A stretch of 64,000 nucleotides of DNA from Micromonospora rosaria (GTDB lineage: Bacteria > Actinomycetota > Actinomycetes > Mycobacteriales > Micromonosporaceae). The DNA lies in NCBI RefSeq assembly GCF_001567585.1, contig NZ_LRQV01000008.1, forward strand, positions 1 to 64,000. The letters are read 5' to 3'. How positions within the stretch are numbered: position 1 is the stretch's first letter; each line of letters opens with the position of its first letter. A program made the translations under genes and the position numbers. Below the pieces are notes generated by a model, which was not told the DNA's origin, did no database searches, and saw only the letters and a list, made by a program, of their open reading frames with translations. Shown here piece by piece: positions 2,911 through 63,858 of the stretch.

Positions 2911-3282
2911 GCTGACTCCTTGATATGCGCTGCCGGAAAGGCCGGCCAACGCGCGCCCACGTGATTCGCGACTGCCATCCCCTGCGTTATGCGGGCACGA
3001 CCGGGCGCGACTGGCGACACCTATATATTGAGCCGAAACCCCTCCTTCGTCAAGTTCCCGCAGGCCGTAGATCATCTCCACGTCAACCTGTCCACTTGCC
3101 GGGGGGCCGCCGCAAGGCTCGGACACGCTCTGTCCGGACACCTTTACTGTACGCCGGATCCCTGAACAGGGTACGGAGCAGTTCGACTTCGCCTTAACTC
3201 TTTCTTAGCCACGTTGCCGCTGCTCACGACGCTCACGTAGCGTCACCTGCGCCCGTCAACCGAAGCTTTGGAGGCACCCGGC
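2911..3282. other. Divergent intergenic region with candidate promoter
   Basis: 372 nt between the small coiled-coil gene (minus) and the CAP protein gene (plus). On the minus strand TTGACG at 3048-3053 and TATATA at 3022-3027 are candidate -35 and -10 boxes, although the 20-nt spacing is long. No reading frame here looks coding. Confidence 0.45.
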
Positions 3283-50125: not shown

Positions 50126-50178
50126 GTGAGAAGGGAACCCTTCTCTACCGGAGGCGTTAAGAGGGGGCCCTTCCTTAC
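50126..50178 (-). repeat. 53-bp dispersed palindromic element, copy B
   Basis: Inverse orientation of copy A; starts GTAAGGAAGGGCCCCC on the minus strand and ends CTCAC. The TAA of cimA (50175-50177) is again nucleotides 2-4 of the element. Confidence 0.93.
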
Positions 50179-51758
50179 ACCGAGGCGCGGGCGACGCCGT
50201 AGGTGAGGGCGTCGACCAGGGCGTGCCAGCTCGCCTCGACCACGTTCGGGTGCACCCCGACGGTGGTCCAGTCCCGGCCCGCCCCGTCGACGGTCTCCAC
50301 CAGCACCCGGGTCACCGCGCCGGTGCCGTGGGTGCCCTCCAGGATCCGCACCTTGTAGTCGGCCAGCTCGAAGTCGCGCAGCTCGGGGTAGTGCTTGGTC
50401 AGCCCGACCCGCAGCGCCTCGTCCAGGGCGTTGACCGGGCCGTTGCCCTCGGCGGTGGCGATCACCCGCTCGCCCTGCACCCGGATCTTCACGGTGGCCT
50501 CGGAGACCACCGCGCCGTCCTCGCGGTGCTCGACCAGCACCCGGTACGACTCCAGGTCGAACGGTCGCGGCGGGGCGCCGTCCGGCAGTTCCGAGCGGAC
50601 CAGCAGCTCGAAGGACGCGTCGGCGGCCTCGAACGACCACCCGCCGGCCTCCAGTTCCTTGACCCGCTTGGTCACCCGGGACAGCGTCTCCGGATGGCCG
50701 GCCAGGTCCAGCCCGAGCTCGCGGCTCTTGAGCTCGATGCTGGCCCGGCCGGCCATCTCGGTGACGAGGATCCGCATGTCGTTCCCGACCACCGCCGGGT
50801 CCACATGGTTGTAGAGCAGCGGATCCACCTTGATCGCGCTCGCGTGCAGCCCCGCCTTGTGGGCGAAGGCGGCGGCCCCGACGTAGGCCTGGTGGGTGTC
50901 GGGGGCGATGTTGGCGATCTCACTGATGGCGTGCGAGACGCGCACCAGCTGCTCCAGGCAGCCCTCCGGTAGGACCGGCAGCCCGAGCTTGAGCTGGAGG
51001 TTGGCGACCACGGCGAAGATGTCGGCGTTGCCGGGGCGCTCGCCGTACCCGTTGGCGGTGCCCTGGAAGTGCAGCACCCCGGCCTCGACGGCGGCGATGG
51101 TGTTGGCCACCGCGCAGGAGGTGTCGTTCTGGCAGTGGATGCCGAGCAGCCCGGGGTCGACCCCGGTCCGCGCGGCCAGGTCGGCGATGGCGGCGGTGAC
51201 CTGCGAGGGGAGCATGCCGCCGTTGGTGTCGCAGAGCACGAACCGCTCGGCCCCGGCCGCCAGCGCGGCCTCGACCACCGAGGCGGTGTACGCCGGGTCG
51301 TGCCGGTACCCGTCGAAGAAGTGCTCGCCGTCGACGAAGACCCGCCGGCCCTGTGCGACCAGGTGCGCCACGGTGTCCCGGACCATCGCCAGGTTCTCCG
51401 CGCCGGTGGTCCGCAGCGCCCGCTCGACGTGCCGGATGTCCGCCTTGGCAACCAGGGCGATCGCCGGGGTCTCGGCGTCGAGCAGGCCACGCACCTGCGG
51501 GTCCTCGGTGACCGCGACGCCGGCCTTGCGGGTGGCGCCGAAGGCGACCAGCACCGCGTGCTTCAGGTCGAGTTCGGTACGGGCGCGGCGGAAGAACTCG
51601 GTGTCCTTGGGTACGGCCCCCGGCCAGCCACCCTCGATGAAGCCGACCCCGAGTTCGTCGAGCAGCCGGGCCACCGCGAGCTTGTCGACGACCGAGTACG
51701 TGAGGCCCTCTCGCTGGGCACCGTCGCGCAACGTCGTGTCGTACACCTGGAAGGTCAT
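50175..51758 (-). CDS. cimA: (R)-citramalate synthase
   Basis: 527 aa. Condenses pyruvate and acetyl-CoA, the threonine-independent entry to isoleucine. DTTLRDGAQREG, IEGGWPGAVPKD, DGEHFFDGYRHDP, LCDTNGGMLPSQ and IHCQNDTSCAVANT mark it as CimA rather than LeuA; the C-terminal LeuA-type allosteric domain is present. ATG at 51756-51758 with GGAG upstream. An attenuator with a V-L-I-I leader peptide precedes it. Confidence 0.96.
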   Translation of the reverse strand: MTFQVYDTTLRDGAQREGLTYSVVDKLAVARLLDELGVGFIEGGWPGAVPKDTEFFRRARTELDLKHAVLVAFGATRKAGVAVTEDPQVRGLLDAETPAIALVAKADIRHVERALRTTGAENLAMVRDTVAHLVAQGRRVFVDGEHFFDGYRHDPAYTASVVEAALAAGAERFVLCDTNGGMLPSQVTAAIADLAARTGVDPGLLGIHCQNDTSCAVANTIAAVEAGVLHFQGTANGYGERPGNADIFAVVANLQLKLGLPVLPEGCLEQLVRVSHAISEIANIAPDTHQAYVGAAAFAHKAGLHASAIKVDPLLYNHVDPAVVGNDMRILVTEMAGRASIELKSRELGLDLAGHPETLSRVTKRVKELEAGGWSFEAADASFELLVRSELPDGAPPRPFDLESYRVLVEHREDGAVVSEATVKIRVQGERVIATAEGNGPVNALDEALRVGLTKHYPELRDFELADYKVRILEGTHGTGAVTRVLVETVDGAGRDWTTVGVHPNVVEASWHALVDALTYGVARASV

Positions 51759-51779
51759 CCGGAGGGCCCTTTCATGAAG

Positions 51780-51813
51780 CAACAAAAAGACCCCCCGCGG
51801 ATGCGGGAGGTCT
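51780..51813 (-). promoter_or_regulatory. Attenuator terminator before cimA
   Basis: On the minus strand an 11-bp stem with one mismatch (AGACCTCCCGC/GCGGGGGGTCT), an ATCC loop and a TTTTTGTT tract. It lies between the leader peptide and the cimA start. Confidence 0.8.
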
Positions 51814-51841
51814 GCGCGCTGGCGGAGACGGAGCCGGCGCG

Positions 51842-51874
51842 CTAGGTGCTGATAATCAGGACGGACCTGGTCAC
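51842..51874 (-). CDS. cimA leader peptide
   Basis: GTG ACC AGG TCC GTC CTG ATT ATC AGC ACC TAG: ten residues VTRSVLIIST with consecutive Val-Leu-Ile-Ile codons, about 30 nt before the terminator stem. This is the layout of a ribosome-mediated branched-chain amino acid attenuator. The ribosome site is weak. Confidence 0.7.
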   Translation of the reverse strand: MTRSVLIIST

Positions 51875-52078
51875 GCTCGGTACTCTGCCACTCGCCGGGT
51901 GGCTCTGGGAGGCAAAATCCACATGTCGGGACGGCGGTCCGGGTCCGCCCGGCGTCACCGGCCCCGGCGATTTCGTCCCGTCTCGGGGGTGTAGCCGGCA
52001 AAGGCCCGGGTAGGAGTTTCGGGGACAGCGCAGATTACCTCCGAGACGGCCGGTCGACGGCCGGGACAGGAGCCCCCC

Positions 52079-52624
52079 GTGGAACGCATCGACACGCACA
52101 CCGCCCCGTTCGACACCCACACGCCGGAGTCCACCGGGCACAGCACCGGCGCGACCGCGCCGCAGGGCTACGATCGCACGCCCAACCCGACCGGCACCAC
52201 CCCCTTCGACCAGACCCAGGGCGCGGTCCCCGGCGGAGCGCCCGCCGGCTCGTTCGACCCCTGGCGGTACCGCGAGGACGCCGGGGTGACCGGCAGCGAC
52301 CTGACCGGCTACAAGGTCGAGGCGACCGACGGCAGCATCGGCAAGATCGACAACGCCAGCCACGCGGTCGACGACAGCTACCTCGTGGTCGACACCGGCC
52401 CGTGGATCTTCGGCAAGAAGGTGATGCTGCCGGCGGGCACCGTCAACCACGTCGACCACGACGAGCAGAAGGTCTACGTCGACCGGGAGAAGGACCAGAT
52501 CAAGGCCGCCCCGGAGTACGACGAGAGCAGCCACGGCGACCCGGCGTACCGCGAGCGGCTGGGCGGCTACTACGGCGAGCGGCACTCGGCGATGCCGCCG
52601 GGCAGCGCCGGGCGGATCATCTGA
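52079..52624 (+). CDS. PRC-barrel domain protein
   Basis: 181 aa, GTG start at 52079. A disordered Thr/Pro/Gly-rich first half is followed by a PRC-barrel at about residues 70-145 (LTGYKVEATDGSIGKIDNAS, YLVVDTGPWIFGKKVMLPAGTVNHV). PRC-barrels occur in RimM and photosynthetic reaction centres; free-standing actinobacterial members are often stress-induced. Divergent from cimA. Confidence 0.92.
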   Translation: MERIDTHTAPFDTHTPESTGHSTGATAPQGYDRTPNPTGTTPFDQTQGAVPGGAPAGSFDPWRYREDAGVTGSDLTGYKVEATDGSIGKIDNASHAVDDSYLVVDTGPWIFGKKVMLPAGTVNHVDHDEQKVYVDREKDQIKAAPEYDESSHGDPAYRERLGGYYGERHSAMPPGSAGRII

Positions 52625-53630: not shown

Positions 53631-54728
<1,098 letters not shown>

Positions 54729-55069
54729 CGCGCTGACCTCCAAGAATCGTCCCGGCACGCCGAGGTTGGCGGACCGGTGTCAGATGTTCTGCAACTTACC
54801 CCGAACGCTCGTTAAGCGAAAAGTGCCGCTCGGGGAAAGGTGGCCTTCGTGGTGGCGCCCGGCCCGCCACCGTCGAGCGGAAAGCCGCCCACCGGAGGGC
54901 AGGACACCGGCGTACGGGCCCAGCGGGACGGTACCGCGAACCGGGCCGGCACCGCACCCGGGTCGCGGGTCGGCGCCCACCCCGGTCGCGCCGCGCCGGC
55001 CGGCGCCACCGCCAGCCGGTCGGGCGCCGGACGGGCCGCCGACAGCCCGGCGACCCCGCGCGCCCGGGA
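54729..55069. other. Gap between leuB and ilvE
   Basis: 341 nt. The ilvE-proximal part contains CCCCGA (54801-54806) and TCGGGG arms around CGCTTAACGAGCG, a possible leader hairpin. The rest is Pro/Arg-rich coding-like sequence in every frame without a start signal; no gene supported. Confidence 0.4.
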
Positions 55070-56101
55070 TCAGGCTACGGCGTAGCCGGCGAGGCGGTCG
55101 CCCACCTCGGCCGTGTTCAGGGGTACGCCCGGGGCGCGGCTGGCCAGCTCGGTGGCGACGGCGTCGGTGACCCGGGCCGCGGCCTCCGGGTGCCCGAGCT
55201 GGTCGAGCAGGAGGGCGGCGGAGAGGACGGCGGCGACCGGGTCGGCCACGCCCTTGCCGGCGATGTCCGGGGCCGAGCCGTGCACCGGCTCGAACATCGA
55301 CGGGTACCGGCCGTCGGGGTTGATGCAGCCGCTGGCGGCCAGGCCGATGCCCCCGGTGACCGCGGCGGCGATGTCGGTGAGGATGTCGCCGAAGAGGTTG
55401 TCGGTGACCACCACGTCGTACCGCTGCGGCTGGGTGACCAGGAACATCGCCGCCGCGTCGACGTGCTGGTACTCGGTGGTGACGTCGGGGTGCTCGGCGG
55501 CGACGGCCTCGAAGGCGCGGGCCCACAGCGAGCCGGCGTGGGTGAGCACGTTGGTCTTGTGCACCAGGGTCACCTTGCGCTGCTCGCGGCGGCCGGCGCG
55601 GGCGAAGGCGTCGCGGATCACCCGCTCCACCCCGTGCCGGGTGTTCAGGCTCTCCTCGGTGGCCACCTCGGCCGGGGTGTCCCGGTGCAGGGTGCCGCCG
55701 GCGCCGGCGTACAGCCCCTCGGTGCCCTCCCGGACCACGACCAGGTCCACCTCGCCGGGCTTGACGTTGGCGAGCGGGCCGGCCGTGCCGGGCCAGAGCC
55801 GCGACGGACGGAGGTTGACGTACTGGTCGAAGGCGAACCGGAGCTTGAGCAGCAGGCCCCGCTCCAGCACGCCCGGCGGGACGGTCGGGTCACCGACCGC
55901 GCCCAGCAGGATGGCGTCGTGCCCGGCCAGCTCGCTCAGGACCGAGTCGGGCAGCACCTCGCCGGTGCGGTGCCAGCGCGCGGCACCCAGGTCGTACTCG
56001 GTGGCCTCGACTCCGGGGAGCACCGCGTCGATGACCTTGCGGGCCTGCGCGACCACCTCGGGCCCGATCCCGTCCCCGGCCACCACCGCGATCCGTGCCA
56101 C
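55070..56101 (-). CDS. leuB: 3-isopropylmalate dehydrogenase
   Basis: 343 aa. Oxidative decarboxylation step of leucine synthesis. [76 protein letters not shown] and [20 protein letters not shown] at 56099-56101 with GAGGAG six nt upstream. Confidence 0.97.
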
Positions 56102-56323
56102 CCTGCGCTCCTCTGCGTCGTCGGTCACGTCGACGGTACGACGCCATCCCGTCCCCCGGTACACATCGTCCGCATCGTGGGAAAGCGAGATGCACAGGCC
56201 CTTTCCAGGTGGCATTCATGGTCCGGTCAACTTCGCTGCCTACCGTGAACGTGCCCGGGTCGCCGGGCCCGGTGACCCGGGTGACCACAGCGACGCGGCA
56301 CCGCCTGCGAGGGAGCACGCCAG

Positions 56324-61971: not shown

Positions 61972-63858
61972 CTAGATGTCGTCCTCGTCGAAGACGGGGC
62001 GGACGCCCCGGGCGAACATGATCTCGTCGTTGCTGGTGCCGGCGGGGACCATCGGCCACACCATGGCGTCCTTGCCGACCACGAAGTCGACCACGACGGG
62101 CGCGTCGTTGATCGCCATCGCCGCCTCGATGGTCTTGTCCACGTCGGCGGCGTTCTCGCAGCGCAGCCCGACGCAGCCGAGCGCCTCGGCCAGCTTGACG
62201 AAGTCCGGGATACGGTGCTTGTGGGTGCCCAGCTCGGTGTTGGAGTAGCGCTCACCGTAGAACAGGGTCTGCCACTGCCGGACCATGCCGAGGTTACCGT
62301 TGTTGATCACGGCGATCTTGACCGGGATGCCCTCCAGGGCGCAGGTGGCCAGCTCCTGGTTGGTCATCTGGAAGCAGCCGTCGCCGTCGATCCCCCAGAC
62401 CACGGTGTCGGGCTTGCCGACCTTCGCGCCCATCGCCGCCGGGACCGCGTACCCCATGGTGCCGGCACCGCCGGAGTTCAGCCAGGTGTACGGCTTCTCG
62501 TACGAGATGAACTGGGACGCCCACATCTGGTGCTGGCCGACGCCCGCCACGAAGATCGTGTCCGGGCCGGCGATCTCGCCCAGCCGCTTGATCACGTACT
62601 GCGGGGAGAGGGTGCCGTCGCCCGGCTCCTCGTAGCCCAGCGGGTACCGGTTGCGCAGGTCGTCGAGCTGGGCCCACCAGTCGTCGTGCCCGGTGACCCG
62701 CCCGGCGGCCCGCTCCACGGTCACCGCGGCGATCAACTCGTCGATGACGTGCCGGGCGTCGCCCACGATCGGCACGTCGGCGTGCCGGTTCTTGCCGATC
62801 TCGGCCGGGTCGATGTCGGCGTGCACCACCGTGGCGTCCGGGGCGAACGAGTCGAGCTTGCCGGTGACCCGGTCGTCGAAGCGGGCGCCCAGCGCGACGA
62901 TGAGGTCGGCCTTCTGCAGGCCGTACACCGCGGCCACCGTGCCGTGCATGCCGGGCATGCCCAGGTGCTGCGGGTGCGAGTCGGGGAACGCGCCGAGCGC
63001 CATCAGCGTGGTGATCACCGGGATGCCGGTCAGCTCGGCGAGCTTGCGCAGCCCCTCGGTGGCGCCGGCCTTGAGCACCCCGCCGCCGACGTACAGCACC
63101 GGCCGGCGGGCGCCGCTCATCAGCCGCGCCGCCTCCCGGATCTGCTTGCCGTGCGGGTGCAGGGTCGGCCGGTACCCGGGCAGGTCCAGGGTGGGCGGCC
63201 AGGTGAAGGAGGTCTGCGCCTGGAGGACGTCCTTGGGGATGTCGACCAGGACCGGGCCGGGCCGGCCGGTGGCGGCCAGGTGGAACGCCTCGGCGAGGAT
63301 CTGCGGGATCTCCTCGGGGGTCTGCACCAGGAAGTTGTGCTTGGTGATCGGCAGGGTGATCCCCTGGATGTCCGCCTCCTGGAAGGCGTCCGTGCCGATC
63401 GCGGGCCGGGCCACCTGGCCGGTGATCGCGACGATCGGCACCGAGTCCATGTACGCGTCGGCGATCGGGGTGACCAGGTTGGTCGCGCCGGGGCCGGAGG
63501 TGGCGATGCAGACGCCGACCTTGCCGGTGGCCTGGGCGTACCCGGTGGCCGCGTGGCCGGCGCCCTGCTCGTGGCGGACCAGGATGTGCCGGACGGCGGA
63601 GTCGTAGAGCGGGTCGTACGCCGGCAGGATCGCCCCACCGGGGATGCCGAAGACGACGTCGACGCCGAGCGCCTCCAGGGACCGCACCAGCGAACCGGCG
63701 CCCGAGAGCGCGGCCGGCTCGGGGGTCCGGGCCACCGGGGTGGTCGGGGCCACGGCGGCGCGGGCGGTGGGCGTGTGGTCGACGTCGCCCGCCGGCTCGG
63801 CGGCGGCGCGGGCCCGCCGGGCGGAGTGGGCGAGTGTCTCGGGCGTTGGTCTCGTCAT
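61972..63858 (-). CDS. ilvB: Acetolactate synthase large (catalytic) subunit
   Basis: 628 aa ThDP- and FAD-dependent enzyme, first common step of Val/Leu/Ile synthesis. [17 protein letters not shown], catalytic Glu in [19 protein letters not shown], ThDP motif [12 protein letters not shown]...[18 protein letters not shown] 50-residue Ala/Pro-rich extension precedes the core. ATG with a GAAGG site. The upstream attenuator-like hairpin is at the window edge. Confidence 0.97.

Follow-up and report, generated by a model that had tools for sequence, protein, structure and literature searches.

A probable isoleucine-reading transcription attenuator upstream of cimA in Micromonospora and other actinomycetes

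Leader peptides at branched-chain genes and the cimA locus

The ilv, leu, his and trp attenuators of enterobacteria carry codons for the end product in a leader peptide that precedes an intrinsic terminator. For actinobacteria, a survey of S. lividans reports eight leaders, and neither 'cimA' nor 'citramalate' occurs in its text (PMC8079986). The S. lividans leader peptide IlvL, MRTRILVLGKRVG, is reported to be leaderless (PMC8079986; IlvL also in PMC1262725), and leuA is described as having no typical terminator (PMC8079986). Substitution of the regulatory codons in the S. coelicolor ilvB leader was reported to have no effect on regulation, which argues either against simple codon control of this scaffold or for a non-classical mechanism; the effects seen at leuA likewise did not fit classical attenuation (PMC1262725). 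In Corynebacterium, control by rich versus minimal medium has been shown for the ilvB-II motif, in which an antiterminator is drawn between the loop of the first hairpin (P1) and the right shoulder of the terminator (PMC10272879).

The element in front of cimA that we describe here resembles each of these systems in part. Like the LEU element of actinobacterial leuA, it has a leader ORF with many codons for the end product, but for the LEU element a pseudoknot is described, the base stem of which is formed between the Leu codons and the Shine-Dalgarno sequence (PMC1262725). With the ilvB-II motif it has in common a leader ORF and two hairpins, the second being the terminator, for which ribosome-dependent attenuation was proposed; the ORF of that motif spans most of P1, whereas at cimA P1 follows the Ile codons (PMC10272879). 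The open-access PMC literature that we searched describes ilvB and leuA leaders, and no cimA attenuator was found there, in line with an earlier note on this DNA that knew of none.

The window, a stretch of 64,000 nucleotides from Micromonospora rosaria, carries the element on its minus strand (Table 1). The earlier note had proposed a 10-residue ORF with Val-Leu-Ile-Ile codons ahead of a terminator and cimA, and all of these parts were found in place, including the identity of the downstream gene. The distance from the leader to the terminator, put at about 30 nt, is 28 nt from the leader stop codon to the terminator stem, and the 22 nt between the end of the TTTTTGTT tail and the cimA ATG was confirmed. 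A terminator scan found a single terminator-like site in 51600-52200, with the tail TTTTGTTGCT, where shuffled sequences average 0.1 sites. The hairpin P1 between leader and terminator had gone unmentioned; its first base doubles as the third base of the leader stop codon. The whole leader folds only somewhat better than its shuffles (z -1.7; 9 of 200 shuffles were equally good). An attenuator in the broad sense is thus present in its parts, with end-product codons in a leader ORF and an intrinsic terminator between this leader and cimA, whose product opens the route from pyruvate to isoleucine.

Table 1. The cimA leader of Micromonospora rosaria and neighbouring genes in the window
Feature	Position	Strand	Basis
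cimA, citramalate synthase, 527 aa, ATG at 51758	50175..51758	minus	TIGR00977 596.6 bits (cut-off 450)
U-tract TTTTGTT, extends the T closing the terminator stem	51781..51787	minus	sequence
GAAAGGG, likely Shine-Dalgarno of cimA	51767..51773	minus	read from sequence
Intrinsic terminator AGACCTCCCGC - ATCC - GCGGGGGGTCT, adjoins P1 without a gap	51813-51788	minus	11 pairs, -21.4 kcal/mol
Hairpin P1, GCGCGCCGGC - TCCGTCTCC - GCCAGCGCGC	51842-51814	minus	-16.2 kcal/mol
Tandem Ile codons ATT ATC, 8 nt 5' of P1	51851..51856	minus	sequence and conservation
Leader ORF GTG ACC AGG TCC GTC CTG ATT ATC AGC ACC TAG = VTRSVLIIST*, 10 codons	51874-51842	minus	
Extended -10-like element TGGCAGAGT, 7 nt 5' of leader start codon	51882..51890	minus	pattern conservation
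Closest gene-like ORF upstream of the leader	52079-52624	plus	no NCBIfam match (judged by eye)
ilvE	53631-54758	minus	
leuB	55070-56215	minus	
ilvB	61978-63732	minus	

Spread and layout of the element

A search of genome contigs for CimA returned 381 relatives, and the best 80 of these 381 were kept; they are the nearest kin, all from Micromonosporaceae (Micromonospora, Verrucosispora, Plantactinospora, Phytohabitans, Salinispora, Asanoa, Nucisporomicrobium and one 'Micromonosporaceae bacterium'). The patterns for P1 and the terminator matched at all 80 cimA loci, and a leader ORF could be placed in every one. Relative to a strict regular expression, the terminator stem has a base change in 17 of 81 Micromonosporaceae sequences. 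Using 42 of the Micromonosporaceae sequences, we built a covariance model, R1, and applied it to 196 genomes drawn from the class, 158 of which encode CimA at E <=1e-60. R1 matched in 141 of the 196 at E <=1, with places taken from among the matches listed. Across the class, own genome included, the element was present in 109 of 139 cimA upstream regions, one of which (L127) was counted by eye at only 17.3 bits, and in 26 of 31 anonymous families. The M. rosaria genome itself has one R1 match below E 1, at cimA. This conservation, far beyond the genus, makes the leader-peptide attenuator that the earlier note placed before cimA very likely.

The element is not universal. It is found in all regions of families f17 (18/18), f15 (18/18) and f18 (17/17), in 9/13 of f23, and in none of f16 (0/15) or f22 (0/6). 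Its absence from 30 of the 139 regions indicates that it is dispensable in some lineages. In eight of the regions without it (the six of f22, L097 of f34 and L110 of f30) a frame resembling IlvE, with 52-55% identity to the IlvE of the window, lies directly 5' of cimA, and it is possible that a leader lies farther upstream there, beyond this frame. No Ile-Ile leader or T-run was found in the stretches searched of the f16 cimA regions.

In four f16 genomes of one genus (g55, L291-L294), the scaffold was instead seen to precede a gene resembling threonine ammonia-lyase, the other entry to isoleucine. Two of the encoded proteins score 299.9 and 294.0 bits against NF005600 and 285.8 and 282.1 bits against TIGR01127, all below the cut-offs, and the other two were assigned by eye. 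The leaders there have a single Ile codon (..MGIT* in L291, ..MAIT* in L293 and ..MAITWARD* in L292; none by our rule in L294). Two loci of genus g56, L233 and L236, with elements at 3001-3092 and 3001-3091 of the minus strand, were observed to have a second Ile-rich leader, VMFALVIIM* and MFTPRIII*, respectively. These second leaders precede an ORF of ~107 aa, which has a weak ACT-domain match in L233 (PF13291, E 0.0014, below the gathering score) and was judged by eye in L236.

Beyond the class, R1 matched at E <=0.001 in 14 of 149 genomes of a phylum sample, 8 of them from other classes. The element precedes ilvB in five of these eight (G224 by NCBIfam; G225, G256, G305 and G315 by eye), and the remaining three are G240 and G247, with other genes, and G257. 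The 34-bit match in G240 (L297) has a frame ending VAIA* before a gene that looks by eye like isocitrate lyase, and may be due to chance. In G247 (L301), a frame ending VLLIT*, a hairpin and a terminator are followed by a 92-aa ORF and an ORF that appears by eye to be related to prephenate dehydratase.

Both helices are upheld by compensatory changes. The class alignment (94 rows, one of them spurious) was collected and fitted with a model of this structure and so leans towards it; 97.2% of its cells pair, both sides have changed at 15 of 20 pairs, and 179 cells show such double changes compared to 35.5 in shuffled and at most 21 in slid alignments. In the same alignment, changes on both sides were found at 10 of the 11 terminator pairs, and the outermost terminator pair is open in 26/91 sequences. 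At the base of P1, GCGC is almost invariant and holds the most conserved pairs, in a set whose model favours GCGC; the fifth pair is G-C in 82/93 and A-U in 11/93 rows. Above it, the stem covaries and the loop varies freely. The loop measures 3 to 16 nt, and 26 of 70 non-redundant elements have one of just 3-4 nt, while 2 to 58 nt lie between the modelled arms of P1. The junction with the terminator is far more constant, with a gap of 0 nt in 163, 1 nt in 15 and 2 nt in 2 of 180 cimA elements, as measured on minimum-energy folds, whose helices are apt to come out too long. Of 78 parsed Micromonosporaceae, 75 have a spacer of 8 nt between the last Ile codon and P1; in the rest of the class it is 3-8 nt in 96/102 and at most 5 nt in 57/102.

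The near-invariance of the P1 base would be expected if a trans-acting factor or small molecule, rather than the ribosome, read P1 as a protein site or riboswitch, albeit in a set collected with a model that favours this very sequence. We consider such a reader highly improbable: the free loop and the covarying upper stem speak against it, as does the codon content of the leader, which switches with the gene from Ile at cimA to Val/Leu at ilvB (see below). Rfam 15 offers no matching family either. At gathering thresholds, it returned two tRNAs only from the window, and at E up to 1, ten loci gave only sub-threshold matches to Atu_C8 and PyrR205 and no T-box.

The leader peptide and its ilvB counterpart

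An in-frame ORF that starts with ATG or GTG and contains Ile was found in 185 of 187 elements, L208 and L212 failing by this rule. Ile-Ile occurs in 171 of these 185 cimA leaders, where nucleotide shuffles lead one to expect ~2: in 78/81 from Micromonosporaceae, window included (shuffled mean 0.7), and in 93/104 from the rest of the class (shuffled mean 1.2). The 14 leaders without Ile-Ile comprise three from Micromonosporaceae (VTSNALILSN, VTSSALILSN and VTCSLLIST) and others such as MGDMQHRIRIP, VFSLSMIMGSRRAGPQ and VPSRRISRPRTG. The leader is 10 codons long in 80 of 81 Micromonosporaceae, again with the window, and 9 in the other. The frame is kept while the stop codon shifts: relative to P1 it falls at -5 to -1 nt in one group of leaders and at +7 to +23 nt, inside the hairpin, in another, with MTFCLIIT*, VAQALIIG*, MPSQVLIIVRRAG* and VLSFAMIIGSRRAGPQ* as examples. 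The residue preceding Ile-Ile is variable (Leu, Arg, Val, Met, Gln, Ala or Ser in 64 sequences).

The Ile codons are also unusual in kind. The rare ATT accounts for 298 of 390 Ile codons in cimA leaders: 149/160 in Micromonosporaceae, compared to 15/1207 in their 80 cimA genes, and 149/230 in the rest of the class, compared to 87/469 in 26 cimA genes. Val GTA (3/92) and Leu CTT (6/139), on the other hand, are near the levels of the cimA genes themselves (152/4608 and 45/1432 for GTA; 46/4074 and 84/1304 for CTT). Isoleucine, as charged tRNA-Ile, is very probably the residue sensed at cimA. The earlier note had named tRNA-Ile, -Leu and -Val together; of these, Ile stands on its tandem and rare codons, and Val and Leu are rejected for their variable positions and ordinary codons.

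Directly upstream, the pattern TGNYANNNT lies 5-9 nt 5' of the leader start in 78/81 Micromonosporaceae (shuffled mean 0.285) and in 72/103 class leaders (shuffled mean 0.415). This -10-like element, which was first spotted by eye and then counted, is at a fixed 7 nt from the leader start in 75 of 81 Micromonosporaceae. A sigma-70 consensus scan of this region of the window gave no promoter match and did not pick it up, and the pattern was found before none of 45 ilvB leaders. Its position suggests that the cimA leader mRNA is leaderless and starts at the GTG. Other actinobacterial leaders have been published as leaderless transcripts (PMC8079986).

The 22 nt between the tail and the cimA start in the window would be compatible with a cimA promoter downstream of a terminator that is constitutive or ends an upstream transcript, the short ORF being incidental. 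That is very unlikely, since Ile-Ile, frame, stop, P1 and spacing are kept across families and the -10-like element keeps its distance from the leader. Moreover, the nearest gene-like ORF upstream, judged by eye, lies on the plus strand, which seems to leave no nearby gene that could be transcribed into the terminator.

The closest counterpart of the element is the actinobacterial ilvB leader. ilvB was found in 192 genomes and 50 upstream regions were examined, 30 because they best matched one ilvB and 20 by choice, so that the sample is not random. All 50 have a leader, 42 by filter and 8 by eye, and both helices are present in 44 of the 45 tabulated. The terminator is flush with P1 (gap 0) in 39/44, and the spacer from the end of the first run of branched-chain codons to P1 is 0-5 nt in all 44 parsed. 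None of the 45 ilvB leaders has Ile-Ile; their Val codons are GTA in 58/82, their Leu codons CTT in 31/98 and their Ile codons ATT in 25/31 cases, in a set where the filter demands at least four branched-chain codons in five and thereby biases the codon content of the 42 upward. The published S. lividans IlvL, MRTRILVLGKRVG, is contained letter for letter in three of our ilvB leaders (L274-L276). In M. rosaria itself, the ilvB leader MSSHRSLRVLT* lies at 64042-64007 on the minus strand of the same contig (L271), just beyond the end of the window, and carries CTG, GTA and CTT codons; a hairpin and a terminator follow, arranged as at cimA.

The two leaders thus share a short ORF, a hairpin just after the control codons and a flush, U-tailed terminator, and they differ in that ilvB leaders are Val/Leu-rich, with rare GTA and CTT, whereas those of cimA have Ile-Ile. 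R1, although derived from cimA, itself finds nine elements before ilvB. By these comparisons the cimA element and the ilvB leader appear to be one scaffold with exchanged control codons, for which we infer a common origin, and the cimA attenuator would be a variant of the amino-acid attenuator, on the scaffold of the ilvB leader, that is undescribed in the open-access papers searched.

Rare synonyms (ATT, GTA, CTT) were seen to be enriched at the sensed residue and not elsewhere in cimA leaders. Since a single tRNA normally decodes both ATT and ATC, selection may act on the speed of decoding and not on which tRNA is used.

Alternative pairings and possible mechanisms

Taken as a whole, the element is probably a ribosome-dependent transcription attenuator that reads charged tRNA-Ile and controls cimA; in the model that we favour, more tentatively, P1 acts as the antiterminator. 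Classical enterobacterial attenuators have a conserved antiterminator, and the cimA element differs from them in that none was found. We looked for one with a swap test, in which a species' own segments are compared with segments exchanged between species; if an alternative helix were functional, own segments should pair better than swapped ones. The test was run on 64 non-redundant rows and, in a second parse, on 70 cimA and 30 ilvB rows. It detected the known helices (P1, z -14.5; terminator, z -13.1) and, as a control of its power, an implanted 7-nt complement (z -15.9 for cimA and -10.8 for ilvB). In contrast, the P1 loop plus 3' arm against the terminator 3' arm gave z -0.5 with 64 rows and -0.6 in the second parse. 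The P1 3' arm alone against the terminator 3' arm gave z -1.1 (P 0.13) and +1.0 at cimA, and the leader showed no significant coevolution with P1 or the terminator (64 rows). The second parse gave no significant pairing in the 70 cimA rows or in the 30 ilvB rows, the most negative value at ilvB being leader against P1 3' arm (z -1.2, P 0.11). The terminator 5' arm, if anything, avoids pairing with the parts upstream of it (z +0.8 to +3.6; +3.6 for the P1 3' arm in the second parse). The swap test is blind to a helix formed by segments that do not vary; the terminator, however, has changes on both sides at 10 of its 11 pairs, which makes an invariant pairing partner unlikely.

The mutually exclusive antiterminator pairing that marks the trp/his type was sought and not found, and we do not class the element as a classical attenuator, as the earlier note had done. 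That note had also named conserved leader codons, a terminator and an antiterminator pairing as the features to look for in aligned Micromonosporaceae; the Ile codons and the terminator are indeed conserved, and it is the covarying pairing that did not appear.

A classical switch would have the ribosome, held at Ile, block the 5' arm of P1 and thereby leave the loop or the 3' arm free to pair with the terminator. Such a pairing can be formed with -17.0 kcal/mol in a Micromonospora (L001) and a Plantactinospora (L040) locus, and in the 57/102 class elements whose spacer is at most 5 nt, a stalled ribosome could open P1. An antiterminator of this kind is the one drawn for the Corynebacterium ilvB leader (PMC10272879); at cimA, the corresponding loop-shoulder pairing, though formable in some members, showed no covariation. 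The loop-terminator candidate has good energies in some Micromonosporaceae, but the loops of other genera lack a complement, its swap z is about 0, and a shuffled-loop test gave a mean z of -0.15 (79 rows). With a P1 loop of just 3-4 nt in 26/70 members, a variable terminator and no coevolution in tests that respond strongly to the 7-nt implant, we regard the classical scheme as unlikely.

If there is no alternative fold, P1 folded or open is the only difference that the ribosome can make to the RNA. The mechanism that we consider most likely, P1 as antiterminator by its presence, would run as follows. Transcription would start at or near the leader start codon, and a ribosome would load at once and translate towards P1. 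With ample Ile-tRNA, it would open the 5' arm of P1 and end at the stop codon, the terminator would close and cimA would be off. With scarce Ile-tRNA, it would stop at the Ile codons and leave P1, ahead of it, folded. Folded P1, abutting the terminator without a linker, would then hinder the basal terminator pairs from closing in the exit channel of RNA polymerase, giving readthrough into cimA; the antiterminator would be P1 itself, with no alternative base pairing. We infer the direction of control from physiology.

The steric step by itself, folded P1 blocking the terminator, is put forward tentatively and may well prove wrong, as judged from the layout of the sequences. What we count in its favour, besides the lack of a covarying alternative pairing and a stop codon placed at -5 to +23 nt of P1, is that the gap to the terminator stays constant (0 nt in 163/180) while the loop and the stretch between the P1 arms vary widely. 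At the 8-nt spacing of Micromonosporaceae, P1 would stand just in front of a ribosome at the Ile codons and would have to open one codon on; a stem is found just ahead of the ribosome entry site at such spacing at frameshift sites. Against P1 staying folded are the spacers of 5 nt or less (57/102 in the class; 44/44 at ilvB), with which a stalled ribosome may reach into P1. We know of no measured case in which an abutting hairpin blocks a terminator. 1:2 hairpins pause RNA polymerase, and P1 may do so too.

The same geometry could work in the opposite sense. Since a zero gap permits coaxial stacking, P1 could instead stack on the terminator and strengthen it, and a stalled ribosome would peel off the basal P1 pairs and weaken termination. 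The basal GCGC, which lies next to both ribosome and terminator, has the most conserved pairs in sequence, and the short spacers (57/102 in the class, 44/44 at ilvB) would let a stalled ribosome, given the size of its footprint, reach a few nucleotides into P1. We rate this polarity as a serious but rather unlikely rival: the 8-nt spacer in 75/78 Micromonosporaceae should leave P1 nearly untouched, and at some -18 to -21 kcal/mol the terminator hardly needs stacking energy.

Returning to P1 as antiterminator, it is conceivable, if doubtful, that these leaders form a modular family without antiterminators, in which one scaffold before different branched-chain genes is retuned by its leader codons and a flush hairpin blocks termination by its presence alone. 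The absence of a covarying antiterminator from both the cimA and the ilvB sets would make a new mechanism directly testable, and it bears on the puzzling codon mutations reported for the S. coelicolor ilvB leader (PMC1262725). In the exchange of codons between the two leaders, nature offers an experiment on codon choice, in which the sensed residue is written in rare codons and its neighbours are not. If our reading is true, actinomycetes, including the main antibiotic producers, would have a sensor for isoleucine specifically on the citramalate route, distinct from the ilvB leader of the same genome, which reads Val and Leu.
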